This document shows positions 3,001 to 63,268 of a stretch of DNA of 64,000 nucleotides, piece after piece. Within the stretch, counting starts at the first letter, position 1. Each line of letters begins with the position of its first letter. The stretch lies in NCBI GenBank assembly GCA_037576195.1, contig CM075102.1, forward strand, positions 27,152,745-27,216,744, written 5' to 3'. This DNA is from Phytoseiulus persimilis (Eukaryota; Arthropoda; Arachnida; Mesostigmata; Phytoseiidae). The notes below the pieces were generated by a model, which searched no databases, had not been told where the DNA came from, and was given only the letters and a program-made list of their open reading frames with translations. The position numbers and the translations under genes were made by a program.

Positions 3001-3975
3001 CAGACATTTGTTTCTGTAGCGACATCAAGCAGGTAACGTTGTTTGAATATGGAAGCCCTTCTCGGAGGGATCGCCGCTACTTTTCACATGCGATTTGTTT
3101 CTGAATGCCGCCAAACAGTTCTGGCGCTTCACGTTCAAGGGGTGCACCGCGACGTCATCGGAGAACCAGCCGCAGAAGCAGTTCTGGAGATGGTCGAAGT
3201 AGACCCATCGATGATCGCGCGCTGACTGGAAGTACGCGCGCAGCCACACCGGTCTTCGAAGCTTTGGTCGTGGTTAATGCGGGGCTGGATCGTAGGGGAA
3301 CGGCAGCTTGGACGAAGACCCCAGACGAGCTCCTTCAGCGCTGCATGGAGACGGAGCAGTACTTTAAGGATCTCTCAGTCTCGAGGGCAGAGCTGTGGCT
3401 CGTGGTGAGGTTGTTCCTGGCCTTCGAAGAAACTGTGCGCTTCCAGAGAGATTTGCGGAGGGAAACAGAGAAACCTGCAAACTGTGACAACTGCAGCTCC
3501 TACGGCCACTTCGACGGCTGCGGCGTCGATGTTGCGGCTGCCGCGGCAGACGTTCTCTCGAACAGCCTGTTACCCTACGCGACCGCCTGCTCGGCTGCCT
3601 ATCTCTTCGATTGGTTCCAACCTGACCGTTGCTCATTGTTGGCCATTGCTGCTCACTCCCAGAGAAGCGGTCAGACGAAAGGATGATGACTGCGATGCTG
3701 ATGATGCCGACTTCTGCAACGAGGCAAGCTGCCAGCGTAGATTACCTCCGTTGCCTTACTCGCTCTTAGTTTCGGACGTCATCTCAGTTGTTGTAGCCGT
3801 TTCCGCCGCTGTCATCGCGGCCGTCGTGATGGTCGACATTTGCCATCTTGGTGGAGGCAACACGACGCGGCCTATGATCGCCTGAATCCAACAGTCGGCC
3901 GCGAGAAGAATCTGTTGGCGATACGCCGGCCGCTGGTCGGTAGATGCCCGTTCGACAAAGATCGGCCTTCCTGCG

Positions 3976-3995
3976 TACCTACCTACCTACCTACC
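3976..3995. repeat. (TACC)5 microsatellite
   Basis: Five perfect tandem copies of the tetranucleotide TACC. It belongs to a wider region where four-base units of the TACC/CTGC/GTCN type are common. Confidence 0.9.
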
Positions 3996-6900
3996 TGAGT
4001 GCGGGCCTGCCCGCCTGACTCTCTCCTACTCGATCGTCAGCTCTGCTAGTTCAGCTGCTACCTTCTCGACGACTGTTAGCTTCGGACTGAGCCACGCAAG
4101 CAGTCGAGCCTGAGCTAGATAATCGAGGTCCGATTCCGGCTTTTCCGAAACTCCAAGTCGCCGCCGCCGTGAATCCCGAAGAAACTCGCTTGCAGAGGAG
4201 CCTCGCTGCGTGCAATGCGGATGCTACAAAGCGAAGGGAGAGGCGACGGTGGTGATGGCGCCAGAAATGGTTGGACGTCCGTTACGGATGAGGAGTTTGG
4301 CTGACTACAACAGAACACGCCAGCAAGTCTCCCTGGCTGCCTACCTCCGTGTTCCAATAGGACAGCGGGCTCAGTCTCGCGTTGGCTCTTCAGTGCTCCG
4401 GACATTCGCATGCCTCGGCGCAGAAGTCGTTCGGTCGTTTCGCTCGGCTGCCCTACGAAGTTCCGCACGGACCTCGTGCACTTTGCGAGAATCACAATCG
4501 AGGAAACATTGAGCTGACTGTTTTCTCATTGAATTCATTTCAAATCACTCGATCATATTTGAGTTCGGCTCGAAGAGAACTTGCTGACTCCGTCGAAGTT
4601 TCGAATGCGCGCCACAAAATGGTAAGTCTCATATCGATCATTAGCAAGTAACAAGTAGCCGGACGGACGGTTCGAACATCTGTGTCAAGCTCTCTGTTGG
4701 CCTCCAAGGCTCTCACGCCTCGTGATTCCGCCAGAATGTGATCGCTGATCGCTCGGACAAAGTAGACCTGGGACTCCTGTGTCTGTCATCTTCTCCGGTC
4801 ATACATGCAGTCGGTACTTCGAGAAATGCCGGGCCATGAAACGATAAAGAACCACCAGCGACCGATCGAGAGTGAAAGAGCAGGGGAGAGAAAGCAACGA
4901 GAGACGGAAAAGCAAATTACGGATTGTACGCTTGGAGCTTCACGAAGTCGATGGCTTGTGAGTGAAGCCCTCTGTGTGTCTGTCTTCTGTTGAACGCAAT
5001 TCACGGTCGGTTCTCTGAAAGTTTGGCATCATCTTTTTTTCCCCATTGCTTGACGCAGGATTGCCGACCAGCTATCCAGCCGACGGCGGTTCCATGGACT
5101 CTCGTTTCGTGGCGGTGGGTTGGTTGCTGTGGTCGCGCGGACTGGTAAAAAGATCCGATCGAAAGCCGACATTGTTCGTTCGGAGCCAGCGTTGACAGAT
5201 ACACAATCTTCCCGGTCGGTTCCTGAACCAGGGTTAGCAGGCCGCCGGGTAAGCCGAGCGATGAGCTGAGCGGCAAGCTGCCCGTTTGACGTGTGCACTG
5301 CCTCAGTAGTCACCGACTGCCTTGTGAACCGAGAGGAATCGGCGTTTTTTGAATGATCGATTCCCGATTCCTCGAAAGACTCGGGCATCCCACCGGTTGA
5401 GCTAGTCGGAAGGGGGGAATTCTCGAAAGCTCGAGTTTCTAGACAGATTTTCCCCGGTGTGCAGCTGTGGCCACACTGTGGGTCCAACGCTCAGAGGTCC
5501 AAGAGGTCGATGAAGATTTTGGGACGATTTCGACAGTATTCTCATTTGACTGTTGTGTGGAGAATGATCCACTGGCTCCACGATCACGGGTTATCCGTGA
5601 CCGGTGTTCGGCCTCCGATCGCAAGAACCGCATCTACGATTGGATGAAGCTGAGCAATCAAAAGTATAACGGCGGAACGCAGCGATGACTGAATCAGTTT
5701 TTCGTTCGTGATGGTGCGCAGGTCTCTCTGATGGATCTTTACTGGTGTTCCAGTGGCTGCATTTCCGAAGTAGCTTTTCTGTCGCTATTCTCTGCCGCTG
5801 TTGTCCCAGCTGCTCCTGTGGCCGCACGCCCTCCGTTGGTCCCGAGTCTGTCGCAGCCATGACTCTCCGCCAAACAGCACGAAACGGACAGAAATCGGCG
5901 CAGACCGCTCTAGCTCCCTAATTACTAGTTCACAGGCTGCCGGGAACATTCGTCGGCTGGGTGGCCGATGTTTGTGCAATCGCCCAATAAAAAAATGGAA
6001 TTAGAACTACTGGTGCGTGTCAAAGATGATGAATCACGCGAGCGTTGAGAAGAACCTGGAAGAGGAAATCCCGAGTACCGGCGCTTCTGAATAGAGGAAA
6101 GTTTCCCGCTCGGCCAAGACTGAGCTTGGGAAGAAATCCGCCGCTCCGTTCGTCCACGACTGATGTTACTGCGGGGACATTTTCTGGACGTTTCCGTACA
6201 GGTTGACAGTTTGTCATCGTCGTCCCTTTCGGAGCCGACCGCTAACGCTAGCCAACAACTCATTCAGAACACCGATCAGCCGAACAATGCATTCACCGAA
6301 TGGTCTGGTCGGCTGGGATAAAAACAGAGTTCAACAATTTTTTTGGAAATGCGCAAAACAAAGAAATCGACTCCGTCCGTCTTCATGCTCCGATCGTGAT
6401 TTTCCGCGGCGGGTTTCCGCAGTGCGTAGCCCCTCGCGGTTGCCACAGGGTTGAGCCACTCCTGAAAGCATGAGAACCTCGCGGGAAGTTCCCTCAGCAA
6501 ATCTCTGCCATGTCGATCAACGAGGGAAACTTTTTGATGAGCTCGTTTCAAAGTTGTTCGCCTCACCGCTCGAGGAGCTTGCTGGCACACATTTTGTTCT
6601 GGTGCGATATTCCGGCTCGTACGGCTCAATCGTTAGATGAAAAACTGGATGGCAATTTGTCTTCTAACTAACGGAGCGTGGCTTCGACGCCGTCGCCGAT
6701 GCTTCGGTCATAGTTCCCGCTGCTCCTCCAGGCCTGGCAACCGTCGTCGCCGACGGCGGCAAAGACGACGAAGTGTTATAAATGATCCTCTTCGTTTGGC
6801 TGTTTTAAATCGAATACAAATTCTGGTGGAAGTTTCTTGCCTACCTGCCTGTCTCCATAACGCTCGTCCGTCGATCAGTCCGTCTGAGGGTGCTTGGACG

Positions 6901-7774
6901 TCCAGACGTCTGCGCGGGGATTTGCCCGCCAGCGACTTTCTGAGTAGACGAGCGAGCAAGCGAACGAACTTTCACTTGCGCAGAACACCGAGCGGAGCCC
7001 ATTCGGATCGGTGTCTGCTGTGGAGGCGAGTCGCGTTGGTCACCGCTGTCGCACGAAAGCAGAAGTTCCAGCGAAAGGTTCGAAGGTGCCAGGTAGCTGT
7101 GAAAGTCCTTTGGTTAACGACATAGAAGTAAGTTAATCGATGTAATTCAGTAGATAACCGCCACCGAGGCTGACTTCGGGGCGCTCCAGCGATGCCGCGT
7201 GAAGCGTTATCTCAGTTGGAGCGGTGACACCGCGAGACGAGGATCGATCTGTGTGGATCGCCAATTCGCCGGCGAGTTGAATGGATCTGAGGAACGACAA
7301 ACGGCCTGATCTCGAAGCCATTACATCCTGATGCTCTCGCTCCCCGACGCACCAACCAGTAATGGGGTGACTGAGCGACTCTGGCTGTCTTCTGTTGTTG
7401 TGTGCGAGTGCGTCGGGTCAGAGCAGAAAGATGCGGAGAATAGGCATCACAATATTGGGGCCCGTTGTTGAAGACTTCCATCTGCGCGGACCATGCCTGC
7501 CAGCCTGAGCGACTGCCAGCCAGCCTGGCTCGCTCCGACGGGAGGATGTTGTTCCGGTAGATACGATTCGGCCTCTCTATGTGGCACTGCAGAGCCGGTA
7601 TTGTCTTGCTCCGGGTTTTTTTCCTTCCTTCATCTTTTTTTTTACGAAGTGCCTCCCATCTGAAATGCAGTTCCACATTTGTGCCTGCCTGCCGCCAGCT
7701 CGACAGTCAGTCAGTGGCCATCAGTGCTCGAGCGGAGGTGCGCTGCCGCAGGTCGTTGTTCGTGGCTCGTCGTC

Positions 7775-8158
7775 ATGGTAGACGAGGAATGGACTCGGCG
7801 GCCGGACGCTCGGACGGACGCGCCGAAGATCGCTATACCTGACGCCGTTCTATTGTATCAGCGAAGCCAAGGTGACGGTCAGTGCACAACGGGTACTGGA
7901 GGCACCGAGCGGCAGCAGATGTCGGCAGGGCAGTCACAGACCGCAGAACCATTACGAGCCGACGATACAGCCGGGTACGCAGCGTATCCGGCCGGTCGTC
8001 GTTGTCGCCGAAGAAGCGCATCGGAGCGTCTTCCTGAGGTGCTGAAAAACGTATTCGGATTCGATGATGAGCTCGACCCGATCTGGTACTTGCCTGCAGC
8101 GCCCGGCCGGCGGCGACGGCTGATCGTTGATGCTTCGGAAGAACCCGCCTCGCCTTGA
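7775..8158 (+). CDS. weak candidate small ORF, unrecognised
   Basis: An ATG in the context GTCATGG opens a 127-codon frame ending in TGA. The C-terminal part reads as plausible protein: an acidic-hydrophobic stretch with LPEVLKNVFGFDDELDPIW, then an arginine run and an acidic tail. No family is recognised and no splice partners were found. Because the surrounding DNA is GC-rich and has long open frames everywhere, this may be chance. It is reported only because its hydrophobic pattern is better than that of its neighbours. Confidence 0.15.
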   Translation: MVDEEWTRRPDARTDAPKIAIPDAVLLYQRSQGDGQCTTGTGGTERQQMSAGQSQTAEPLRADDTAGYAAYPAGRRCRRRSASERLPEVLKNVFGFDDELDPIWYLPAAPGRRRRLIVDASEEPASP

Positions 8159-9468
8159 CAAAGACCTGTGCGGCTTTTGCTCCGTTTGAGATCGTTTCAG
8201 TCAGTCAGTCATCGTTCTCGGCTCAATCTCAATTTAAGTTATGCCGAAATCGAGACGGATCTACCGTTTGACGGACGATGTTCTCCAAAACCATCTTTGA
8301 CGAAGTATTTAGCTCCGTCAGTGAGACACGGTTTTCGAGTTACGGGGTCCCGTCGTTGTAGCACAGCGTCATATCACGAAAAACTGCGCTAGTTCCGTGC
8401 CAAAATGAACATCGCTCACGAACGGCGGAGGTACACAAAGGATTCGAGCGTTCAGGACCCGGGAATCGGGCTCACCTGAACAATATCGACGCGAGCCAAC
8501 TTCGCGGACTCCGCTCCGAGAGCCCGGCTCGAGCTGATTCCCGCAGCTGTAACAACTATCGATGTCGTAGCGCACGGCGAGACCCAGCTCCCTGCGGAGA
8601 GATCGGCCGGCACCCGGATCGATGGGTCGATGGGAGCGTTCGATTCCAATCGATACATAGCTGTCCAGAGCCGCCGTGGAGCGCTCGTTGGCGTGTCCAA
8701 ACGCAGTGTTCGAGCTCTCGTTTATTCCTCAGCGGCACAATCTCGAGAAGTTCTCGTCGATCTCCGCCTCGGCGACGGCCGTTTCGAACTGCATGCGATT
8801 CGAGGGACGACCGCGCAGACGACGGAGGTGGATCAAGTCAAATGGGGAGGTATCGGCGAGCTCTGCGGCAGAAGACCGATCACCTGGTGGAACGTAGCGG
8901 CGGAACTCGGGACTCGTGTGGAACTCTGGCGGCGCAATCCTTCCACAGCCATACTCGAACCACGCTCATGGTTGACAGTTTCGACGTTCAATCGATCTAA
9001 TTGTAACACGCTTTGCAGGAGTCAGGCGTTGCGCGCTTCTGAGGCGATTCGAGGGCTGCAGGCGGGATGATGGTGCTTTTCGCGAGTTTCCGTACAATTA
9101 TGCGGTCGTGCCGACTTGTGTACCGTGGCGGAATCTTCGATAACCGCAGCAGGTCAGTCAGTTGTCGGAGTTGTTCTTGTTATCGTCGTCATCGTTGTCG
9201 TTGCTGAGAGGTTTGTGCGGGCACCGCGGGTTTCCTCGTGACGACCGTTTGTCTTCAGGCGTCTCACGCTTTAGTCAAAACAACGAAAGTACGGCCGCTG
9301 TAATGAGGGCCTTGTCCTGGTCCTCAAGAGCCGTCTCCCGCCCCGTCCTTTGGCTTGTTCCCCGTTCGTCTTCAACGACTCACTCGAAGCCCCGTCTCAC
9401 CATCACGTTCCTCCTCCTGTGCCTGAGAGCGGATTCCGCTCAGCCGAACGAGTGAATCCCAGTTTTAG

Positions 9469-16763: not shown

Positions 16764-17045
16764 TCAATCGAGGCTTTCTGCTTCTTCTTCTCCTCCCCAG
16801 TTTTGCTTGTTTTTTTGCCCCGAATGGCACTGCAAGAATTCACGGTTGACTTTTGGAATCTGTGGCTTCTGTAGTGCCTTCTGAGGCATTAATTCGTTCA
16901 TTGTTATGTTTTGCTGAGTTTTGAGACGAATTAGTTTGCTCTGAAGGTAAGTCTGCTCCAATATTTTGTTTGGTTCTCTTCCCACCAACTCTCCCAAGAG
17001 TGCCTCTGTGACATGGGTCGTGTTTCGGTACACGTTCGATGTCAT
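16764..17045 (-). CDS. weak candidate ORF or exon, unrecognised
   Basis: An ATG at 17045 opens a 93-codon minus-strand frame ending in TGA at 16764. The local GC content is lower than in the surroundings. The predicted peptide is polar, rich in Gln, Lys and Asn, with an acidic C-terminus. A second minus frame is open over part of the same DNA, so the coding frame is not certain. No family is recognised and no introns could be attached. Confidence 0.15.
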   Translation of the reverse strand: MTSNVYRNTTHVTEALLGELVGREPNKILEQTYLQSKLIRLKTQQNITMNELMPQKALQKPQIPKVNREFLQCHSGQKNKQNWGGEEEAESLD

Positions 17046-20850: not shown

Positions 20851-29461
<8,611 letters not shown>

Positions 29462-51818: not shown

Positions 51819-54800
51819 ATGCTTACTACAATCAGATACTTCTTCTGGAGAGCATGGCTTTGGGCGACCGCTGGACATCGAATTGATCGTTTCAACAAAC
51901 TCACGGATTGGTATTCAAAAGACCCTTTCAAATACGGCTTGTTGCCATCGGCTAAAGAGCTCGAGTACGAATATCCAAGAGTGAATCTTGGTAATCGTGA
52001 AGATGTCATAGACTTCTTCCTCCAAAATTCGAAGCAGCAGTGTTTGTTCGCGCGAATTTCAAGGCTCGGGAGTGGTAAGTCTGAGCTCAAGAGTTCTGTG
52101 TGAGAGGGAGATGATCACGCGCTGGAAAAAAGAGTGGACGTGAGAATCGCAGATATTCTGGTAAAGTGTCCGCCGCCTTCGTCATTCCCTCGGCAAATGC
52201 TCGTTGACCGGATACTCTGAGTCCGACGGAATTTCTTTTCGAAGATAGACGTAGGATTCGGCATCGGGACGGCTTCTCGATCCGTTTATGGGCTTCTCGA
52301 CCAGTCCTGAATCCCTTGAAACTTCACAGGACTTGCGTCGATGTCTTTCTATGTCCGACTGGGCGACAAGGGTTCCTGGAGAGCGGAGTCTGTGGTCGTT
52401 GACCAGAGCACCTCTGACACTTTCATTGCTGGCGGCTTACGCATTGAGTCACTTTATTCCATGAGACGATACAGGATATCGTACAACGGTGTCGTTCACA
52501 ATTCACAAAACGAAGCCACCCATCTACGAGCGATTTTCATGTGAGTTCAATTTAGTTCAGCGTTTTCCGACTTTTCCCGTGGGAATTCTGAAGTGCTTTC
52601 AGATAGAGAACGGGCGAATCGAGATCGATGATTGAGTGACTCATTTTCCGTTGAGCGCTGTTTCACATCCTGATCAAATTCTTGTCGTTCTTTTTTCCGG
52701 CGCAAGTTACAGAGTGGACTCAATGAACCTTAACACTCCTTCCAGAGGAAACCACATAACAGCTTGCGGAGATTACCAAGCTTTCCATGACAATCACTTT
52801 CTGGCCAAGCAGCTGCCGTTCAGTGCTGAGATAGAATCGCTGAAAAAACTCGATATCTATGTGCAGACCTTCTCGCTGACCGGTAAAGTTTTCGTAGAAG
52901 ATTCCGAGGACGAAGTGTATCTTTGGGGATACAGACGGAAACAAGCTCTTGATTGCGACCCACGCGGAGTAGAGCTGAAAGCTCGCATCACGGCTTACAC
53001 CGAGGTAACTTTCTCCCCGATCCTAAACTTCCTCAAACGAGATGTGCCGGCGGCATCACTCCGAGTATGACGTTCGGGTGTCTCGAGGGAATCGATCGGA
53101 GGAGATATCTTGAGAAACATATCAAGCGTCTGCCATCATCTCTGCGAGAGAATCAGTGTGGCAATCCGTATTCATGGAGTGCTTCTAATGATCTCGTCGT
53201 TGGTCAGAATGGACTCGGCCTTGATTTCAATGAAGCCAGCGTCAAGGACTTGTCTGCAGCCCTGCTGTTCGGTCATCTGAATTACCCGGCTCTTCAACAA
53301 CGACCAATCCAGAATTGTTCTGTCAGCTCTATCATCGGCGCGAAACGATTCCGGATAGGAGCAGGTGGGATCAGCTGAACCATTCACAGCAACAAAGTGA
53401 CGATCCGTTAAGGGCTGGAAGCAAGAAGATCGGCCATCCATCGAACGTTCTCTTAATGTTACAGCTCAATTCAAGAATCTGGAATTCTCCATCGAGTCGA
53501 TGATCGACGAGTTCTTCTGGACCGAACCGATTGGGAACGAATGGCACAGATTCAGCGCCAAAGTTCTGAGAATCAACTACGATGGGAACGTTGGACACGC
53601 GATGCTGATGGTTGCGAATGAGTGGGTGGTACCAATTTTGCATGAACACGCAACTTTTTTCATATTCGACCCATGGGCCTCCTAAAATCGTCTAGTCTGA
53701 TTTCTGGTCTACTGTTTTTCAAAGAGGTGTTCCGAGGGACGTACAGTTGCCCACAGTGTCACCTTATGTTCACATTCTTGGACTGCGGAAAGAGTTCACC
53801 TCCTCGAAGCATGTGCTCCGCTTTGACGATCCTCTTTGTAGAGAAGAACCCCTCACCGGGGGAAAAGGAAGCAGCCTCGCTATCCTCACCGACATCTCCA
53901 ACAAGGAGCAATCTGTGAGTGTGTCTTACGTCATAAGCAACTGAGATCTGAACAGAACAGTTTTCGCAGGGGGGGAAAGCTAGAGATTTCCGATTACAGT
54001 TTAAGGTGCCGCGAGGAATCTGCATCACCACGAGAGCATACAGGGCTTTCATTGCGTCCAAGGCAAGCCGCCAAGCGGTCGACAAGCTGGTCAGCTCTTG
54101 CGGAGCTCAGCCATCGAACGAGAATCTTCAGAGTTTGTGCGAGGAGTGAGTAGTTTTCTCGGACATTGTTGCCGTCGAGTTTTCTAGCAGCCCTGATGGA
54201 GGTGTGCAGGAGCGTGCATCCTCCGACTTCCGTTTTTGATGTTCCTGCGTTGTTCCCGGTTGTCCAGAACTCGAGCCATCGTTGCTTCAGCAACGCTACC
54301 CAACGAGACTTTAGAACAGATTCGCTCAGAACTTGAAAACCTATTTGGTGAAAATGCTTCCAAAACTCGATTTGCCGTCCGGTCTTCTGCGTGCGGAGAG
54401 GATTCTGAAAACATGTCCGCTGCCGGTGAGTTGTGTTCGGATTAGCCCTGACCTTCCTCCCAGAAGTGACTCGTGAAGTTCCAGCTTCGGATAACTCATG
54501 CTTCCTCCGCAGGACAAATGGAAACTTTCTTGGGCGTCGTTGGCTTCGCGCAGCTCGCGTCGGCTGTAGCGAAGTGCTGGGCGAGTCAATTCGGATTCGT
54601 GGCCGTGCAGTACAAAAGACGTTATGGACAGTTGATTGACGCTGATATGTGCGTTGTGATACAGGAGATGGTGGCTTCAGATGTGTCTGGTGTCATGTTC
54701 ACCGTGGATCCAATCACGGCGAATCCCCTACTCCTGTCAATCACCGCTAACTACGGACTAGGCGAGGTGCGAACTCCACATTTTCGGAAGCGGCAGGTGT

Positions 54801-57800
54801 GCAGCGGGGCTCAAACTCACTCACTCGAGTCAATTTCCGTCCCCAGAGTGTGGTATCAGCTTCTGCTGACCCCGATACGTTCACCGTCTGCCGGGAAGCG
54901 AACGGTTCCCTGTCCATCGCGAGCATCCACCTCGGACAGAAGAAACTGTCGACAGTTATGAAAGGTTTCCGGGCCGGACGAGCTTTCTTATCAGGATGAC
55001 GCGTGCGAAATATCAATCCTGAATGAGTTTCTTGGGTTAATTCTGAACTATGACTCGCCTTTCAGGATCTGGGGGTACTGTCGATGTGGTTGGGCAAGAC
55101 CGCTCCCGGGAACAAACCCTGACAGAGGAGCAGGTGCTCCAGTTGGGGAGAATAGGCTTGCTACTGGAAAGCGAGTACGCAAGCCCTCGCGACACGGAAT
55201 GGGCTTTCCATCAAGTGAGCTCCTGGGTTTCTCAAAAGCACCTGGGATGCTCGAGGGAACGACGAAGAATCATCGCAATAATATCAGAGCATTCACTGAT
55301 AAAAATAAGCGTCATTAACGATTCAGGGAACGCTACATATGCTGCAAGCCAGACCTGTCACCTCTGCTGATAACATCGATTCGGAGTTTGAAGCCTTCCA
55401 CGAATCAGACTGCGGTCTCGTTGCCGAATTCGACTCCGTAACAAAAGCCAACGTTGGGTGCGTGATCGAATTCGAAATGGGAATAAATTACTCCCGGTTG
55501 ATCTAGGCGAATGCCAATCGTGGTGCAGGAAGCCATGTTCCATTAGTTCCTCCCAATTCGAATGGCTCTGACCCATTCCTAACTCTGAACTTCCAGGGAA
55601 GTTTTCGGCGGAAGTGTGTCTACCTTGACTCAAACATCCTTCTTGCAAATGTTTCTCAAGGAGAAGATCGATGCACAAAAAATGGGTTTGGACTATGGGC
55701 AACACGCATTAGCGAGGCAAACCCTCTTCATGTTCCATCACAGTCAGGGCTTCTTCCACACGTTCTCGGCAAGTCCGATCTCTGCCATAGGAACTTCCTA
55801 TGGTTACTTTCTACAACGAGGTTATTTTCTGCTATTGTGTCCCACGAGGGCCTAATTCTCTTTCCTCCTCAGTCAATGGGAGACCTTTCAGCGAAAGATG
55901 CTGCTTCTATGGGATTTTCCATTGCGATTGCTGGGAGGTCCATGGACGACAGTATCGTGTTAAAAAGCAATTCAAACAAGAAGAAGTATCTCTGTACTGT
56001 AAGTCGATTCTTGGTCGAAAGGCATCCGCGTCGATTGTTCAACGTGCGAGCAACAGTCGGGTCTGTTACTCCGTCGTTTGCGGGCGATATCGGTTGTGAC
56101 TTCGGGTTCCATCGCTCAATGCCGATGTTTCCATTCTAATTTTGCGTCCCTACAGGATAGGCCGATTCCTGGATTGCTGCAGATGCTCCCCGTATTTTGG
56201 ACAGTTACCAAGAGTGTCGATTCGGCTGAGAAAATGATATCAGGGTACTCACCCGAATCTCTGAAGAAAACGGAGGTCCGAGATATATTCCTCACAGCAT
56301 TCATGGATCCCGACCTCAACACTACGGTATGGAAGTGCCAGTCATCAGAATACTGTGGAACTCTGATTCTCTTGCGATTGATCGTGATGGAAAAAATTAA
56401 GAGTATCGGCATGATGAAATACTCTGTCTGTCACGGTTTCTCGGAATTTGAATGCGCTTTCCAGGCCGGCGAAACTCACGTTCAAGCGATTTGTTATGGA
56501 TCTCTGAGCAACGTCGCTCTGATGACTCTTCTAGCAAACGCCGAAGGGGGTGAGTATTCTGAGGTCGTCAGAGATTGCTCCTAAGAGAGAAAGACTCCTT
56601 TGACCATGAGAAGCGTCGAAGTATTCTATTCTCGGCAGCTGTCGTTTTCGGTGCAAAGTCGGGTACCGGGCGGCCCATCAGGGTTTGGAATTAGCTCTGA
56701 ATCAAGCGTCCATCATTGAAGTTGGACGTGGGTCAATCATGACCACGGAACTATACTATGTGGGAGAGGTGTCTAGTGCTTCCCAGGGGTCTGGATTATG
56801 TAGAAATAAACTGAATCTAGATCTCAATCCTACTGCTTCGCAGGATGGACGTCAAATGTTTTCGGAGACTTCGCCGCCCTGGTTTCCTCTTGCAACGATA
56901 TAGTTAGTGCTGGAGTTCCGCAGTCATTGCAGAAAATCGCATTCTACCTCAAACAGGACCATGGAGCAAAGTGAGTGACATCCTGAGTTCATGAACTCGA
57001 GCGCCAGGTATATCCGAGGGAAGGACAGCACGTCAGAGCCTCCCTGAAACCTCCTTGCTGCCGCAAACTCTTCTTGCTGTAGATTCATCGGAATGGAGCC
57101 CGCGGAAGCTCTGAAAATGCTCAAGGAAGGACACACAGAAAGTGCAAAGCTCTTCCAGAAGTTCCTCGAAGATCACGGACATCGCTGTTTGCACGAGGTC
57201 TGTCTTCGTAATAACTGTTGAATAATTTTCACTCAGAAGATGAGACATCGAGTTGTGAATTCCGGGGGTTTCTCTCCAGTTTGATCTCGTCGTGAGACCC
57301 TGGGGTATGGACCCGCTACCTGTTGTGAGAACGTTGCAATCGATGGTCTCAAGCAACACTGGTCGGGCAGATCACGGGAAAGAGATAACCATCGACGAGA
57401 TTCTCGATAAAATGACCATAAAAATGTCGTGGGGCAAACGGTAAGCGATCCGATCATGCGGAATTCCGATGGAGGACCCAGGCGTCCAAATCGTCCAAAC
57501 TCTGTCCTCGCTTGTGACTGTGGACGAACTTGCTCTTCGCAGGCAATTGTTGAAGTTCATTCTACATCGAGTAAGGAAAGGCATAGCGCTGCGAGAGCGA
57601 GCGAAGTCTTGCCTTGTGAAAAGCACTCATCAAATCAGAAGATCGATTCGACATCTGGGTAATCCTGGAATCCTTGTCCAAACTTGATCCGCTCCATCGG
57701 TCGATCCTCGGCGACGCATCTGACCCTTTCCATTTCTTTTCAGCGAAAAGAATGGTCGAAGATGGCCGTATTCCGGAGCAAGACCTACTTTTCTTCCTGA

Positions 57801-58786
57801 ACCCCAGTGAACTGCTCAACTTGATTGAAACAAGGTGAGAAAACCCTGCGCGGTTGGAGTCTCGACATGGATAGCATACGTTTCGGGAATTCTTTGGTCC
57901 TGGTCGCGAGGTACTAGCCCATGCGATCGTTTTTTTTTTTTGTCGGGACCCGTTGCAGGAACCCGAAGCTCATCGTGCGGGCAATGCACCGGATGAAGAA
58001 CGCGAAAATGGCGGCGAAGAACCTCTACGCTGAGATAATAGCTTGCCCCCCTTTCATTCCTGTGAGTTTTAATCCCACGACTTGCACGATGGCTCTCTCT
58101 CTCTCGTCGCTCGTGTCGCATCTGGATGCAACTTTAAGCAAGAGGATCTTTGCAGACCAATTCGCCCCAAGTGGTGACTGCCCCACCCACCGGAGCGCGT
58201 TCTATGACAGGTACTCCGGTGTCGAAAGGACGCGCGGTCGCTCCAGCTCGGGTCATCACTAGACTCGAAGACGCCCATCTCATCCAGAAGGTAGAGTCCT
58301 GAGAAACTATGGGGTCGCTCTGAAATTTGGGTGTCCGCCGAGATTTTCGCGATAAGACTCAACAAAGGAAGTAACTATTCGAATATCGATAGGGAGACGT
58401 TTTGATCACCTACGCGACAGACATCGGTTGGAGTCCCTACTTCCCACTGATAAGCGGTATAGTGACAGAGTTAGGAGGTCTGATTTCTCACGGTAAGTGG
58501 ATCCGAGAGCTCCACTGACCAGAAGGAGCATCGATAGAAAGACGCTGATGCTATCAGAGGGTGCGGGAACTCGATATTGACATAACATACAAGCATCGGG
58601 CTGTCAAGCAGCGCTGAAGGTAAAATCATCGTTTCAGGTGCGGTCGTCGCCCGTGAGTATGGGATCCCATGCATCGTGGGCTGTCATGGTGCGACAAAGC
58701 TGTTCGTTTCCGGTGAAGAAGTTCTCCTCGACGGCAACAAAGGTTTGATTGCGACGACATCCGTCGCGGAATCGCAGTCTGCGTGA
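51819..58786 (+). CDS. PEP-synthase / rifampicin-phosphotransferase-like enzyme
   Basis: Predicted ATP-dependent dikinase that loads a catalytic histidine; substrate unknown. Twenty-five exons: 51819-52074, 52330-52540, 52713-53004, 53088-53364, 53465-53621, 53725-53914, 54000-54145, 54268-54425, 54513-54766, 54847-54964, 55066-55214, 55327-55457, 55597-55768, 55873-55998, 56156-56326, 56465-56549, 56844-56970, 57083-57197, 57280-57440, 57543-57658, 57744-57834, 57959-58061, 58156-58290, 58393-58492, 58638-58786; 1329 aa. A hydrophobic N-terminus (IRYFFWRAWLWATAG) and a roughly 400-aa unrecognised region precede the ATP-grasp part: GGKGSS (about 441), VRSSACGED (about 548), SGVMFTVDP, NYGLGE. 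LHMLQARP closes that domain. The phosphohistidine domain has GGLISHGAVVAREYGIP (His about 1280). There is no PEP/pyruvate barrel. Intron 13 uses a GC donor (55769). Exons 4 and 5 are the least certain. Confidence 0.88.
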
Positions 58787-58959: not shown

Positions 58960-60171
58960 AGGGTAAAAACCTTTTTCTGTATACCCGGTCTCCTGTTCGC
59001 GGATGATATTGTACTCATGGCCAGGAATCACCAAGAAATGGGAAAAGTCTTGGAAGCCACGACGAAATATGGAGACGAGAATGAGCTGACATTCAACCCC
59101 GCAAAGAGCGCGGTAGTGGTATACTCAGCCCATGACCTGGGGCCCAAGAGGGAACTGAGGATACAAGGCGAGGAGGTACCGACAGCTCGTAACTAAAAAT
59201 ACTTGGGCATCAGGCTTCCGGACTCCAGAAACTACCTGAACAACCAGGAGGAAGTCTGGGAGAAAGTAGCGATCACCGCCCTACACCAGATGCACGCATC
59301 GTCACTTTGGGGTTTCAATAGATTCGAAATCTCAACAGTGCAATCGAAATCTACAGCGGTGCCGAAACTAAGCTACGCAAACGCAGTACTAGTCACGAGC
59401 ACATCGCTGACGGAAAAACTCGAAAAATAGCAACGAAAAGCGGGAAAGTGGGCGTTAGGAATCCCAGGTTCCAGAGTCCCCAACGAGTTCATCCAAGGAG
59501 AGCTTGGATGGTCGTCCTTCGAAGCAAGAGGGGCCCAGAGCAAGCTGAGATATATAGAGAGGGTCAGGGCAATGCCAAATACCAGGTGGCCGAAGAGCAT
59601 CCTGAGAATGATGGAGCTTACAAACAAGAAGACCAAAATGTACCAGGAAACGGAGCGCCTCAAAGCAATTTACCATTGCGAAGATATCAGGGTGGACTCC
59701 GATGACCAAGGTCGACCGCTCCTCGGGCTTTACGGTAAACTCATCAAGAAGAGAATCCGGGAAACCCAGGACAGACTTTGGAAAGAAAACATGCTCTTTA
59801 AGTCTAGTCTTCAAGCGTACAGCAGGGGAAAAACTACCCGTTGTGTGACTAGCTACCTGTACGTCAACAGCAAGGGTAGCGCCCTACTGGCTCTGGCACG
59901 AGCGAACATGCTGCCAACCAGAGCCCATAAGATGAACTCTGGATTAGACAAAACCTGTCCTAGATGTGGCGTATACGAGGAAACGACAGAACACGCTATC
60001 TTCGAATGCAACGACATCTATTTTACCGAAGATGAACTTGTGTACCGTCTCGGACTCCACGAGGAAGCGAATAACGCGACCGAAGTAAGAAGGACGAAAA
60101 AGATCCTGGAGGACTGGGACAAAAACCAAACTCGATCTGCTGAATCACTCGCGCCTGATACGAAAGGCTGA
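58960..60171 (+). mobile_element. 5'-truncated non-LTR retrotransposon (reverse transcriptase C-terminal half)
   Basis: A single reading frame begins inside the reverse transcriptase at the catalytic motif LLFADDIVLM (near 58987). It continues through the thumb/connection (KYLGIRLPDS, RKAGKWALGIPGSRVPNEF) to a C-terminal Cys/His finger (CPRCGVYEETTEHAIFEC) and a stop at 60169-60171. It is broken by only two in-frame stops, TAA at 59194-59196 and TAG at 59428-59430, with no frameshift. The endonuclease and the N-terminal half of the reverse transcriptase are missing, as in ordinary 5' truncation. An AT-rich TATA-repeat tail follows at 60177-60205. The layout is that of a LINE-type element; the clade is not determined. 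Dead copy, probably fairly young. Confidence 0.88.
59572..60171 (+). CDS. longest intact frame of the retrotransposon fragment (199 codons)
   Basis: After the second stop codon of the element, ATG 59572 opens a 199-codon frame covering the region C-terminal to the reverse transcriptase, with the CPRC...HAIFEC metal-binding pattern near its end. It lacks all polymerase motifs and is not expected to work alone. It is listed so it is not taken for a host gene. Confidence 0.6.
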   Translation: MPNTRWPKSILRMMELTNKKTKMYQETERLKAIYHCEDIRVDSDDQGRPLLGLYGKLIKKRIRETQDRLWKENMLFKSSLQAYSRGKTTRCVTSYLYVNSKGSALLALARANMLPTRAHKMNSGLDKTCPRCGVYEETTEHAIFECNDIYFTEDELVYRLGLHEEANNATEVRRTKKILEDWDKNQTRSAESLAPDTKG

Positions 60172-61854: not shown

Positions 61855-63268
61855 ATGAGTGTCGGCATGCTGCGCGGTTTGCTCGGAGGACTTCGGGGCT
61901 CCCCTTCGGGATTGTTGCCGTGTGCGGTGCAAGCCCCGTACGCTCAACAGACTCGAGGTTACCCTACACAGAAGTACTTCAAAATTTTGGCGGAGAACAG
62001 GAAAAGGAACAGACTCCGGAAGTTACAGAAAGTAGATGAAGTCAAGGTAACGTTCGCCGAAGCTCAAAAATCCAAATTGAAGAAGACTGTTCTCGGGAGT
62101 CGGAGGTGAGTGGGTATTAGACGGGATCCGTGAAGAGTCCCAAAGGCTGTGTGCAATGCTCCGCGTGCCCAGTCAACAGTAAGATGTGAACCTGCGAACT
62201 TCTCAGATACACAGAGAAGAACTGGCCAAAGCAAATAAACACGGACGACGTCCATCGCCTGAAAAGCGTTGTGAGGCCGGTCTATGATCTCGAGTCATGC
62301 ATCCGGATGCACCGGGAAATTCTCCATCCAACCATGTACAACAGACCCGATGCTCTGTTGATGGCCACTGTGGAGCTTGATATGAGCGCGAGGAAGAAAA
62401 ACCGCTTCCTCGATCAGATTTCGGTAAGATTCGACCTCTATCCAGAAGGAGCGTTGATGCTCTCGATGCCTGTCCTGAATGGGACCATTTACTAGATCTC
62501 CTCATAGCAGAACTCCATCGGAGGAAGCGATTGAATCGTCATGAATCCTCTTCCGCAGGGCTCCCTGTTGCTGCCTCACTTTTTCGAGTATAAACGTCAG
62601 ATCACAAGAATCTTGTGTTTCTGCAAATCGGCGGACGAGGCCACTGAAGCGTTGGAAAAAGGAGCTAATTTGGCTGGAGGAGAGCAGCTGATCAAGAAAA
62701 TAGAGTTGGGCGAAGTCGACGTGTCATCCTTCGACACTGTCGTCTGTCATGTGAATATGTTCGAAAAGATCGGCTCATTGAGGAACGTTCTCAAGAAACA
62801 AATGCCGAAACTGGGACAACCTGACACCGTCACTGATGATGTTCTGACTCTAATTGAGCGTCATCGCAAAGCGATCCTGTACGCGGCTCAAGGAGATCGG
62901 TACGAACCAGACTACGCGTCATTCACCATCCCGATAGCAACACTCCAGATGCACATCGACCAAATCCACGAAAACATCCAAGAGCTTTTCGTTGGGGTGA
63001 GTTGATGTGGAGGGAATTTGATGCTATATGATACCGAATTCCGCCTGAAAGCTGAGGGAACAATCGAGTAATCATTTGCCGTTTCTTGACTTTTCCCCAG
63101 GTGAGCCAGCAGCAACCGAAGGGGCGACCACCGAATAGCTTCATCACCGAAGTATTCCTGAGCTGTCCACCGTCACTCGAAAAACTTGTTATGGACAGGA
63201 CTCCTTTCTTTGCGAAGCAACAGTCAACTCCACGAGATGAGGCGAAAACTGACACCACAGAAGACTAG
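61855..63268 (+). CDS. MRPL1: mitochondrial large ribosomal subunit protein L1
   Basis: Component of the L1 stalk of the mitochondrial ribosome. Four exons, 61855-62105, 62207-62423, 62559-62996 and 63101-63268, give 357 aa in phase. The start at ATG 61855 yields a basic, Ser/Arg/Gly-rich N-terminus suited to mitochondrial import (cleavage perhaps near TRGYPTQKYF). The L1 core includes SCIRMHREILHPTMY and VELDMSARKKNRF, then YKRQITRILCFCKSADEATEA and LIKKIELGEVDVSSFDTVV. The C-terminus is charged and rich in Thr and Asp. A poly(A) signal follows at 63313. Confidence 0.9.

Follow-up and report, generated by a model that had tools for sequence, protein, structure and literature searches.

What does an intact gene for a bacterial-type phosphohistidine dikinase do in the genome of a mite, and how did it come to be there? 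The gene occupies positions 51819 to 58786, on the plus strand, of a stretch of 64,000 nucleotides from Phytoseiulus persimilis (assembly GCA_037576195.1, contig CM075102.1, positions 27,152,745 to 27,216,744), the whole of which is here called the window. Our answer, to which we assign a probability of roughly 0.7 from sequence comparison, is that its product is a dikinase acting on small molecules, fused to a domain that handles the substrate, and that the gene belongs to a family that expanded in the animal after descending from a bacterial gene pair.

A gene-specific splice-site search, with several borders afterwards set by hand from known domain motifs, gives an intact coding region of 25 exons, with its ATG at 51819, its stop codon ending at 58786, and a product of 1289 amino acids (aa). 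This independent search recovered the start, stop and exon count proposed in an initial annotation of the window; the product differs from the annotated one of 1329 aa, and the histidine numbered 1280 there is H1240 here. Exons 1-8 lie at 51819-52074, 52330-52540, 52713-53004, 53208-53364, 53465-53621, 53725-53914, 54000-54145 and 54268-54425; exons 9-17 at 54513-54766, 54847-54964, 55066-55214, 55327-55457, 55597-55768, 55873-55998, 56156-56326, 56465-56549 and 56844-56970; and exons 18-25 at 57083-57197, 57280-57440, 57543-57658, 57744-57834, 57959-58061, 58156-58290, 58393-58492 and 58638-58786. Spliced alignment of the protein to the DNA returned identical borders except for a missed intron after exon 10, where the donor is weak; the other weak spots of the model are a GC-AG intron after exon 13 and the acceptor of exon 6. 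The closest paralogue in the genome (L133, 57% identical) agrees with the window gene in the position and phase of 22 of 24 introns and retains both exon 4 and exon 5 in its model, and exon 4 matches the paralogue by itself (E 8.7e-14, 52%). With spliceosomal introns, animal neighbours and a place on a contig of 52 Mb, within an assembly of 181 Mb, the dikinase gene is a resident animal gene. Bacterial contamination was considered and rejected on the introns and the contig position.

The protein divides into four parts, of which the last three follow the order found in rifampicin phosphotransferase (RPH). An N-terminal domain (51819..53806, aa 1-385, exons 1-6) precedes an ATP-grasp domain (53807..55374, aa 386-712), a middle domain that is the counterpart of the RPH substrate-binding domain (55375..58164, aa 713-1165) and a phosphohistidine swivel domain (58165..58786, aa 1166-1289). 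The ATP-grasp and swivel domains reported in the initial annotation are both borne out by Pfam, with matches to PPDK_N (PF01326, E 1.4e-69, aa 400-712) and to the PEP-utilizers swivel domain (PF00391, E 1.1e-22, aa 1205-1276); two further Pfam matches fall under cut-off, and none lies inside aa 1-385. The same scan found no C-terminal phosphoenolpyruvate (PEP)/pyruvate barrel, again as annotated, and the protein stops 13 aa past the swivel match. Among solved structures the top matches by sequence are those of RPH (5hv2, 5hv1 and 5fbs, E about 2e-82), in two colinear stretches covering aa 386-710 and 981-1278. The middle domain was recognized by blastp against bacterial relatives, with best E-values of 1e-18 for the dikinase at locus L010 and 1e-15 for that at locus L009, by its alignment to RPH, and by motifs common to both sides.

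In that alignment K405 (53864..53866), R508, T527 and E691 correspond to Lys22, Arg117, Thr136 and Glu297 of the Listeria enzyme RPH-Lm, and R1076, E1077, K1080 and H1240 to Arg666, Glu667, Lys670 and His825, given an offset of 12 between the numbering in the PDB and in the paper as deduced from chain lengths. The motif R1076-E1077-x-x-K1080 is encoded at 57592..57606, and H1240, the catalytic histidine, by the final full codon of exon 24 (58489..58491). According to PMC4844700, the residues Lys22, Arg117, Thr136, Arg666 and Glu667 are critical for the two half-reactions, and mutation of any one of them abolishes phosphorylation of rifampin by RPH, while Glu297 is dispensable, and the Arg-Glu-x-x-Lys motif places the hydroxyl of the substrate. 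The annotated combination of ordinary animal introns with all visible catalytic residues is thus upheld, with 25 spliceosomal exons and counterparts of the critical residues of RPH.

The N-terminal domain, described at first as unrecognised, proved to have bacterial relatives. A profile of 17 animal rows (the window protein plus 16 paralogues) was compared with a profile of 17 bacterial proteins of the DUF7065/7064 type and matched over 139 columns with a probability of 93.8%, an E-value of 1.7e-7 and a score of 62.7; the matched core runs from about aa 66 to 293. None of 500 column shuffles reached that score (best 20.5), and the reversed profile scored 14.2. Removing the window row gave 63.5, and dropping any of four bacterial rows left at least 60.8. 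Against nine DUF-type proteins picked for their adjacency to dikinases, the animal profile matched over 195 columns with a probability of 97.5 and E 8.4e-12, a comparison made without the shuffle control. A search with the animal profile through 396 genomes drawn from one phylum found four frames (E 4e-6 to 2e-4), each a protein of its own with a length of 325-371 aa. Three directly adjoin a dikinase on the same strand, and three are likewise matched by the bacterial DUF model. Judged by these profiles, the animal N-terminal domain is homologous to bacterial DUF7065/7064-type proteins. One protein matched by the animal profile is encoded on the minus strand at 4363-5337 of locus L194, in a 10-kb stretch where a dikinase was not found.

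The dikinase portion has its own bacterial relatives. In a tree of 41 rows built on the three catalytic domains, with 15 of the 18 animal models available (L139, L146 and L148 being left out) and 26 of 48 prokaryotic proteins, the animal models form one clade with support of 100/100, and their sister (100/99) is the pair L009 and L010, apart from the gene annotated as rph and its relatives. L009, which the initial scan had already picked out as closely related, comes from Mycolicibacterium pyrenivorans. A second tree of 37 rows, with 10 animal models and added bacteria, gave the same placement and a sister clade of seven bacterial rows; a DUF-type gene was found beside six of them, the seventh being L010. 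The sister group of the animal models is a clade of dikinases from mycobacteria and metagenome-assembled genomes rather than canonical RPH. A tree of the ATP-grasp domain by itself gave no placement of the animal gene.

Gene neighborhoods in this sister clade connect the two halves of the animal protein. Among 251 genomes sampled from the family of L009, 38 carry an ortholog of it (E below 1e-110). Of 34 sister-clade loci returned, 32 were examined, leaving out two that are secondary, weaker matches within the genome of L009, and ten further ortholog matches without a locus stand outside the count. A DUF-type gene lies on the same strand, within a flank of at most 1.5 kb, at 29 of the 32, and in all 29 it is a separate frame. 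The three loci lacking one in the flank are L154, from the genome of L010, and L184 and L185, where the flank reaches less far because the match begins inside the gene. At L193 the DUF-type gene precedes the dikinase, in the order of the animal protein, with overlapping ends and a start codon taken as the first in frame; at L186 the dikinase comes first and the two share an ATGA overlap. The second gene upstream of the L009 dikinase is a short open reading frame of 173 aa, alike by eye to the animal N-terminus, whose relatives on plasmids each form an independent protein of roughly 370 aa. At L010 a 120-aa frame that ends just before the dikinase resembles, by eye, the C-terminal half of the DUF protein. 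A fused bacterial gene was not seen: among 80 loci from a general scan for dikinases, the best E-value for the animal N-terminal model was 0.86. Compared with the animal protein, dikinases of the L009/L010 type share the position as sister clade, the substrate-domain motifs and the nearby DUF-type gene, and differ in their length of about 800 aa, their two separate genes and their freedom from introns. At positions 3932-8218 of another bacterial locus, L012, an Anaerolineales frame of 1429 aa matches dikinases in its first part and carries an unexplained extension at the C-terminus.

DUF-type genes also accompany kinases of other kinds. For 17 plasmid loci carrying them (L088-L104, some from one plasmid), dikinase linkage was found at five. 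Thirteen of these stretches are annotated and four carry no annotation; in ten of the 13, the DUF-type gene lies near a gene of the phosphotransferase family or an ecdysteroid-kinase-like gene. Two of the remaining three, L099 and L104, both from Rhodococcus plasmids (L104 from R. oxybenzonivorans), have dikinase genes instead; in both, the DUF-type gene sits amid several split dikinase genes and AMP-ligases. Three control stretches of 49 kb from such plasmids contained no phosphotransferase-family annotation in gene tables that are incomplete, and one of them held a two-gene dikinase. It is possible that the DUF7065/7064-type protein is a general partner of kinases.

Under the origin we propose, an adjacent pair of bacterial genes, one DUF-type and one dikinase, would have passed into the animal lineage, where the pair would later have fused, gained introns and been duplicated. 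Several observations weigh against this reading or against its reach. Taken alone, the window N-terminus is scored equally highly by 80 of 600 shuffles, gives hhalign E-values of 0.069 and 0.17, ranks 181st in HMMER among 4002 sequences given, and finds nothing above cut-off in Pfam and nothing in plasmids (by tblastn) or viral contigs; recognition comes with the profile because the paralogue rows supply enough signal. The models that lend the domain its name, Pfam DUF7065 (PF23213) and DUF7064 (PF23212), match none of seven animal N-termini tested, and the related bacterial proteins reach one or the other below cut-off only, in four of six tested. The protein at L193, whose gene order is that of the animal, is missed by the bacterial DUF model at E 1e-3 and matched by the animal model alone. 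In the general scan, with flanks of up to 4 kb, a DUF-type gene stood near just one of 80 dikinase loci, L009 itself, so the linkage is characteristic of the sister clade, with a few others such as L191 and L192, which are linked and fall elsewhere in the tree, rather than of dikinases overall. The two trees carry warnings of long branches and of unlike letter composition, the latter in 16 of the 41 rows of the first and 19 of the 37 rows of the second, L009 and L010 included. Finally, relatives were sought in prokaryotic collections only, which bears on transfer, on its direction and on the number of events.

That last point leaves room for a different history, in which the gene is an old eukaryotic one, inherited vertically, lost from most lineages and never transferred into animals. 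The animal clade does fall among prokaryotic rows, in trees that hold no other eukaryotes, and the restriction to prokaryotic relatives is in part a product of the search set; moreover, the family may be old, because genes of similar name (the names being the extent of the comparison) are recorded in tick, shrimp and bdelloid rotifer. Set against this is the make-up of the closest prokaryotic relatives, which possess the same two parts split into nearby genes, and we consider vertical descent unlikely.

Descent from a bacterial gene pair is followed, in our preferred reading, by expansion in the animal. The initial annotation described a single dikinase gene, and a PPDK_N profile search of the 181-Mb genome shows that it does not stand alone: there are 42 exon-level matches at 19 places, so that the window gene is one of about 19, and the swivel domain gives 25 matches at 21 places. 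The figure of 19 rests on exon-level matches, and four of the places are on small contigs that are possibly alternative copies. Seventeen further regions were modelled by spliced alignment with the window protein, making 18 models with the window gene; these models are computed, with some junctions unresolved. The N-terminal part is present in 16 of the 17 (L148, whose stretch is cut, starts late), the ATP-grasp and middle parts in all 17, at 34-57% identity to the window protein, and the swivel histidine is reached in 16. A single frameshift mark appears in each of six of the 17, and a single in-frame stop in each of L133 and L137; these are most likely missed introns, with damaged copies as the alternative. 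Pairwise identity among the 18 models does not exceed 67%, save for L139 and L140, two models at C1 12.87-12.88 Mb that are 100% identical, in inverted orientation and about 12 kb apart, produced either by a recent duplication in inverse orientation or by the assembly. Two tandem PPDK_N matches of equal score lie about 3 kb apart (G000:C3:37172869 and 37175978), and the model at L146 may mix two genes there. A 14-kb contig (G000:C77) has three swivel matches and PPDK_N at one place only.

The size of this family raises the prospect that the fold was kept and the enzyme lost, the duplicated genes now encoding binding or storage proteins, and the faster evolution of the substrate and N-terminal regions relative to the ATP and swivel domains would suit such a history. 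The catalytic parts tell otherwise. All eight catalytic positions, the R1076-E1077-x-x-K1080 motif among them, are unchanged in 18 of 18 models, with the qualification that L146 ends before the histidine, which is thus seen in 17 of 18. Four pairs were compared: synonymous change, saturated or close to it, far exceeds nonsynonymous change (for the window gene and L133, pN 0.285 and pS 0.805, the latter saturated), and nonsynonymous change reaches its minimum in the swivel and ATP domains, the most constrained parts of the protein. Loss of the enzyme is accordingly very unlikely. From shared introns, catalytic positions and suppressed nonsynonymous change, the dikinase paralogues look like old, constrained genes, in agreement with the annotation's view of a gene long resident and apparently under selection.

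The initial annotation had likened the layout to that of RPH and PigC. The order of ATP-grasp, substrate and swivel domains does agree with theirs, and canonical membership in either family does not follow. The window protein scores 353 bits with the RPH model NF041857 (cut-off 999) and 320 bits with the PigC model NF052631 (cut-off 1300). Membership in RPH was rejected on that score and on a position outside the annotated rph clade, and membership with the prodigiosin ligase PigC on a score far under the curated cut-off. Were the protein a true rifampicin-inactivating phosphotransferase, or a PigC-type ligase, still acting on its bacterial substrate, that would explain why both models match at all, why the structures of RPH (PDB 5hv1, 5hv2, 5fbs) are the best solved matches, and why domain order and critical residues agree. 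The residue likeness covers the eight positions compared and stands beside an additional N-terminal domain of 385 aa, a substrate domain about 25% identical to its best bacterial match by blastp, scores far short of the cut-offs, and a place outside the annotated-rph clade in three trees. Retention of such a substrate is highly improbable. Identity as a PEP synthase, for which tick and shrimp entries are named and with which the PPDK_N and swivel domains are shared, can be dismissed, since the PEP/pyruvate barrel of PEP synthases and pyruvate phosphate dikinases was not found in the Pfam scan, the swivel domain is C-terminal, and the models for PEP synthase score far below cut-off.

What reaction, then, might the enzyme perform? 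As outlined in PMC4844700 and PMC12167813, RPH and HpeHI transfer the beta phosphate of ATP onto the histidine of the swivel domain, releasing AMP and inorganic phosphate (Pi), and the swivel domain swings to deliver it to a substrate hydroxyl; the substrate is rifampin for RPH (PMC4844700) and phenolics for HpeHI (PMC12167813). HpeHI, together with CreHI and PpsAB, resembles the animal protein in using RPH-type parts on small hydroxylated molecules (PMC12167813) and differs in having ATP-grasp and swivel domains on split chains that serve aromatic catabolism, a likeness drawn by description. By analogy, H1240 would attack the beta phosphate of ATP held on the ATP-grasp domain, yielding AMP and Pi; the swivel domain would then carry the phosphate to the middle domain, where R1076, E1077 and K1080 would position it for transfer to a substrate hydroxyl. 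The substrate would be a small, probably hydrophobic molecule bound or presented by the N-terminal domain. Because the catalytic parts are present, ATP-dependent phosphorylation of some small molecule is the probable activity. Binding or presentation of a hydrophobic substrate by the N-terminal domain is what we infer from its fusion to the kinase in the animal and its neighborhood with kinases in bacteria.

The literature touches the animal family at the level of names. Judged by name, the tick gene IrSigP-110295 and the shrimp genes LOC113821593 and LOC113805473 probably belong to the same family. Genes of arthropods and rotifers are named phosphoenolpyruvate synthase or YvkC-like in print (PMC5099782, PMC11011141 and PMC3499245). 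A table in the first of these lists the tick gene, under the annotation phosphoenolpyruvate synthase, with 451-fold over-representation in the midgut of partially fed ticks; a phospholipase, a sphingomyelinase and a sulfotransferase appear in the same table. The phosphorylation of xenobiotics or lipid-like substrates suggested in the initial annotation is conjectural; a xenobiotic role, to which that tick midgut gene would point if it belongs to the family, is possible but less likely than not. Among the literature matches listed, the family appears by name only, and neither the fusion, nor the N-terminal domain, nor a function in animals was found described there; a literature search for DUF7064/7065 gave no paper, and terms for the animal family are absent from the main text of PMC13389597 and PMC13342648. 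What the sequence predicts is a dikinase of RPH-like type to which a DUF7065/7064-like domain is fused, in a sizeable animal gene family.

Other features of the window are what would be expected of animal DNA, in particular a microRNA precursor of the mir-263 family at 16812-16892 on the plus strand (52.9 bits, Rfam cut-off 51.3) and a family A DNA polymerase exon. The latter belongs to frames at 21354-28519 (plus strand) with a helicase-like part (DEAD, 1.9e-5, just under cut-off) and a DNA polymerase family A match (8.7e-46), which are probably those of DNA polymerase theta. Some 650 bp past the dikinase stop codon, at 59431-60168 (plus strand), is a non-LTR retrotransposon remnant (zf-RVT, 1.4e-4, below cut-off), and a frame of the ribosomal protein L1 family (8.1e-14) follows at 62535-63002 on the same strand.

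In its broadest form our proposal is that a two-gene operon became a single protein and then about 19 genes, providing an unrecognised ATP-to-AMP phosphorylation route for lipophilic molecules, whether dietary, defensive or hormonal, with the DUF domain as substrate presenter and with the arthropod "PEP synthases" included; we hold this to be possible, at slightly less than even odds. An animal gene family that is probably misnamed elsewhere would become a testable enzyme class, and a domain of unknown function would gain a testable role as the partner of small-molecule kinases. The locus would also offer a case of neighboring bacterial genes turned into one fusion gene. Should ticks and mites turn out to employ enzymes of this kind to act on compounds of the host or on acaricides, the family would matter for detoxification in pests and vectors.

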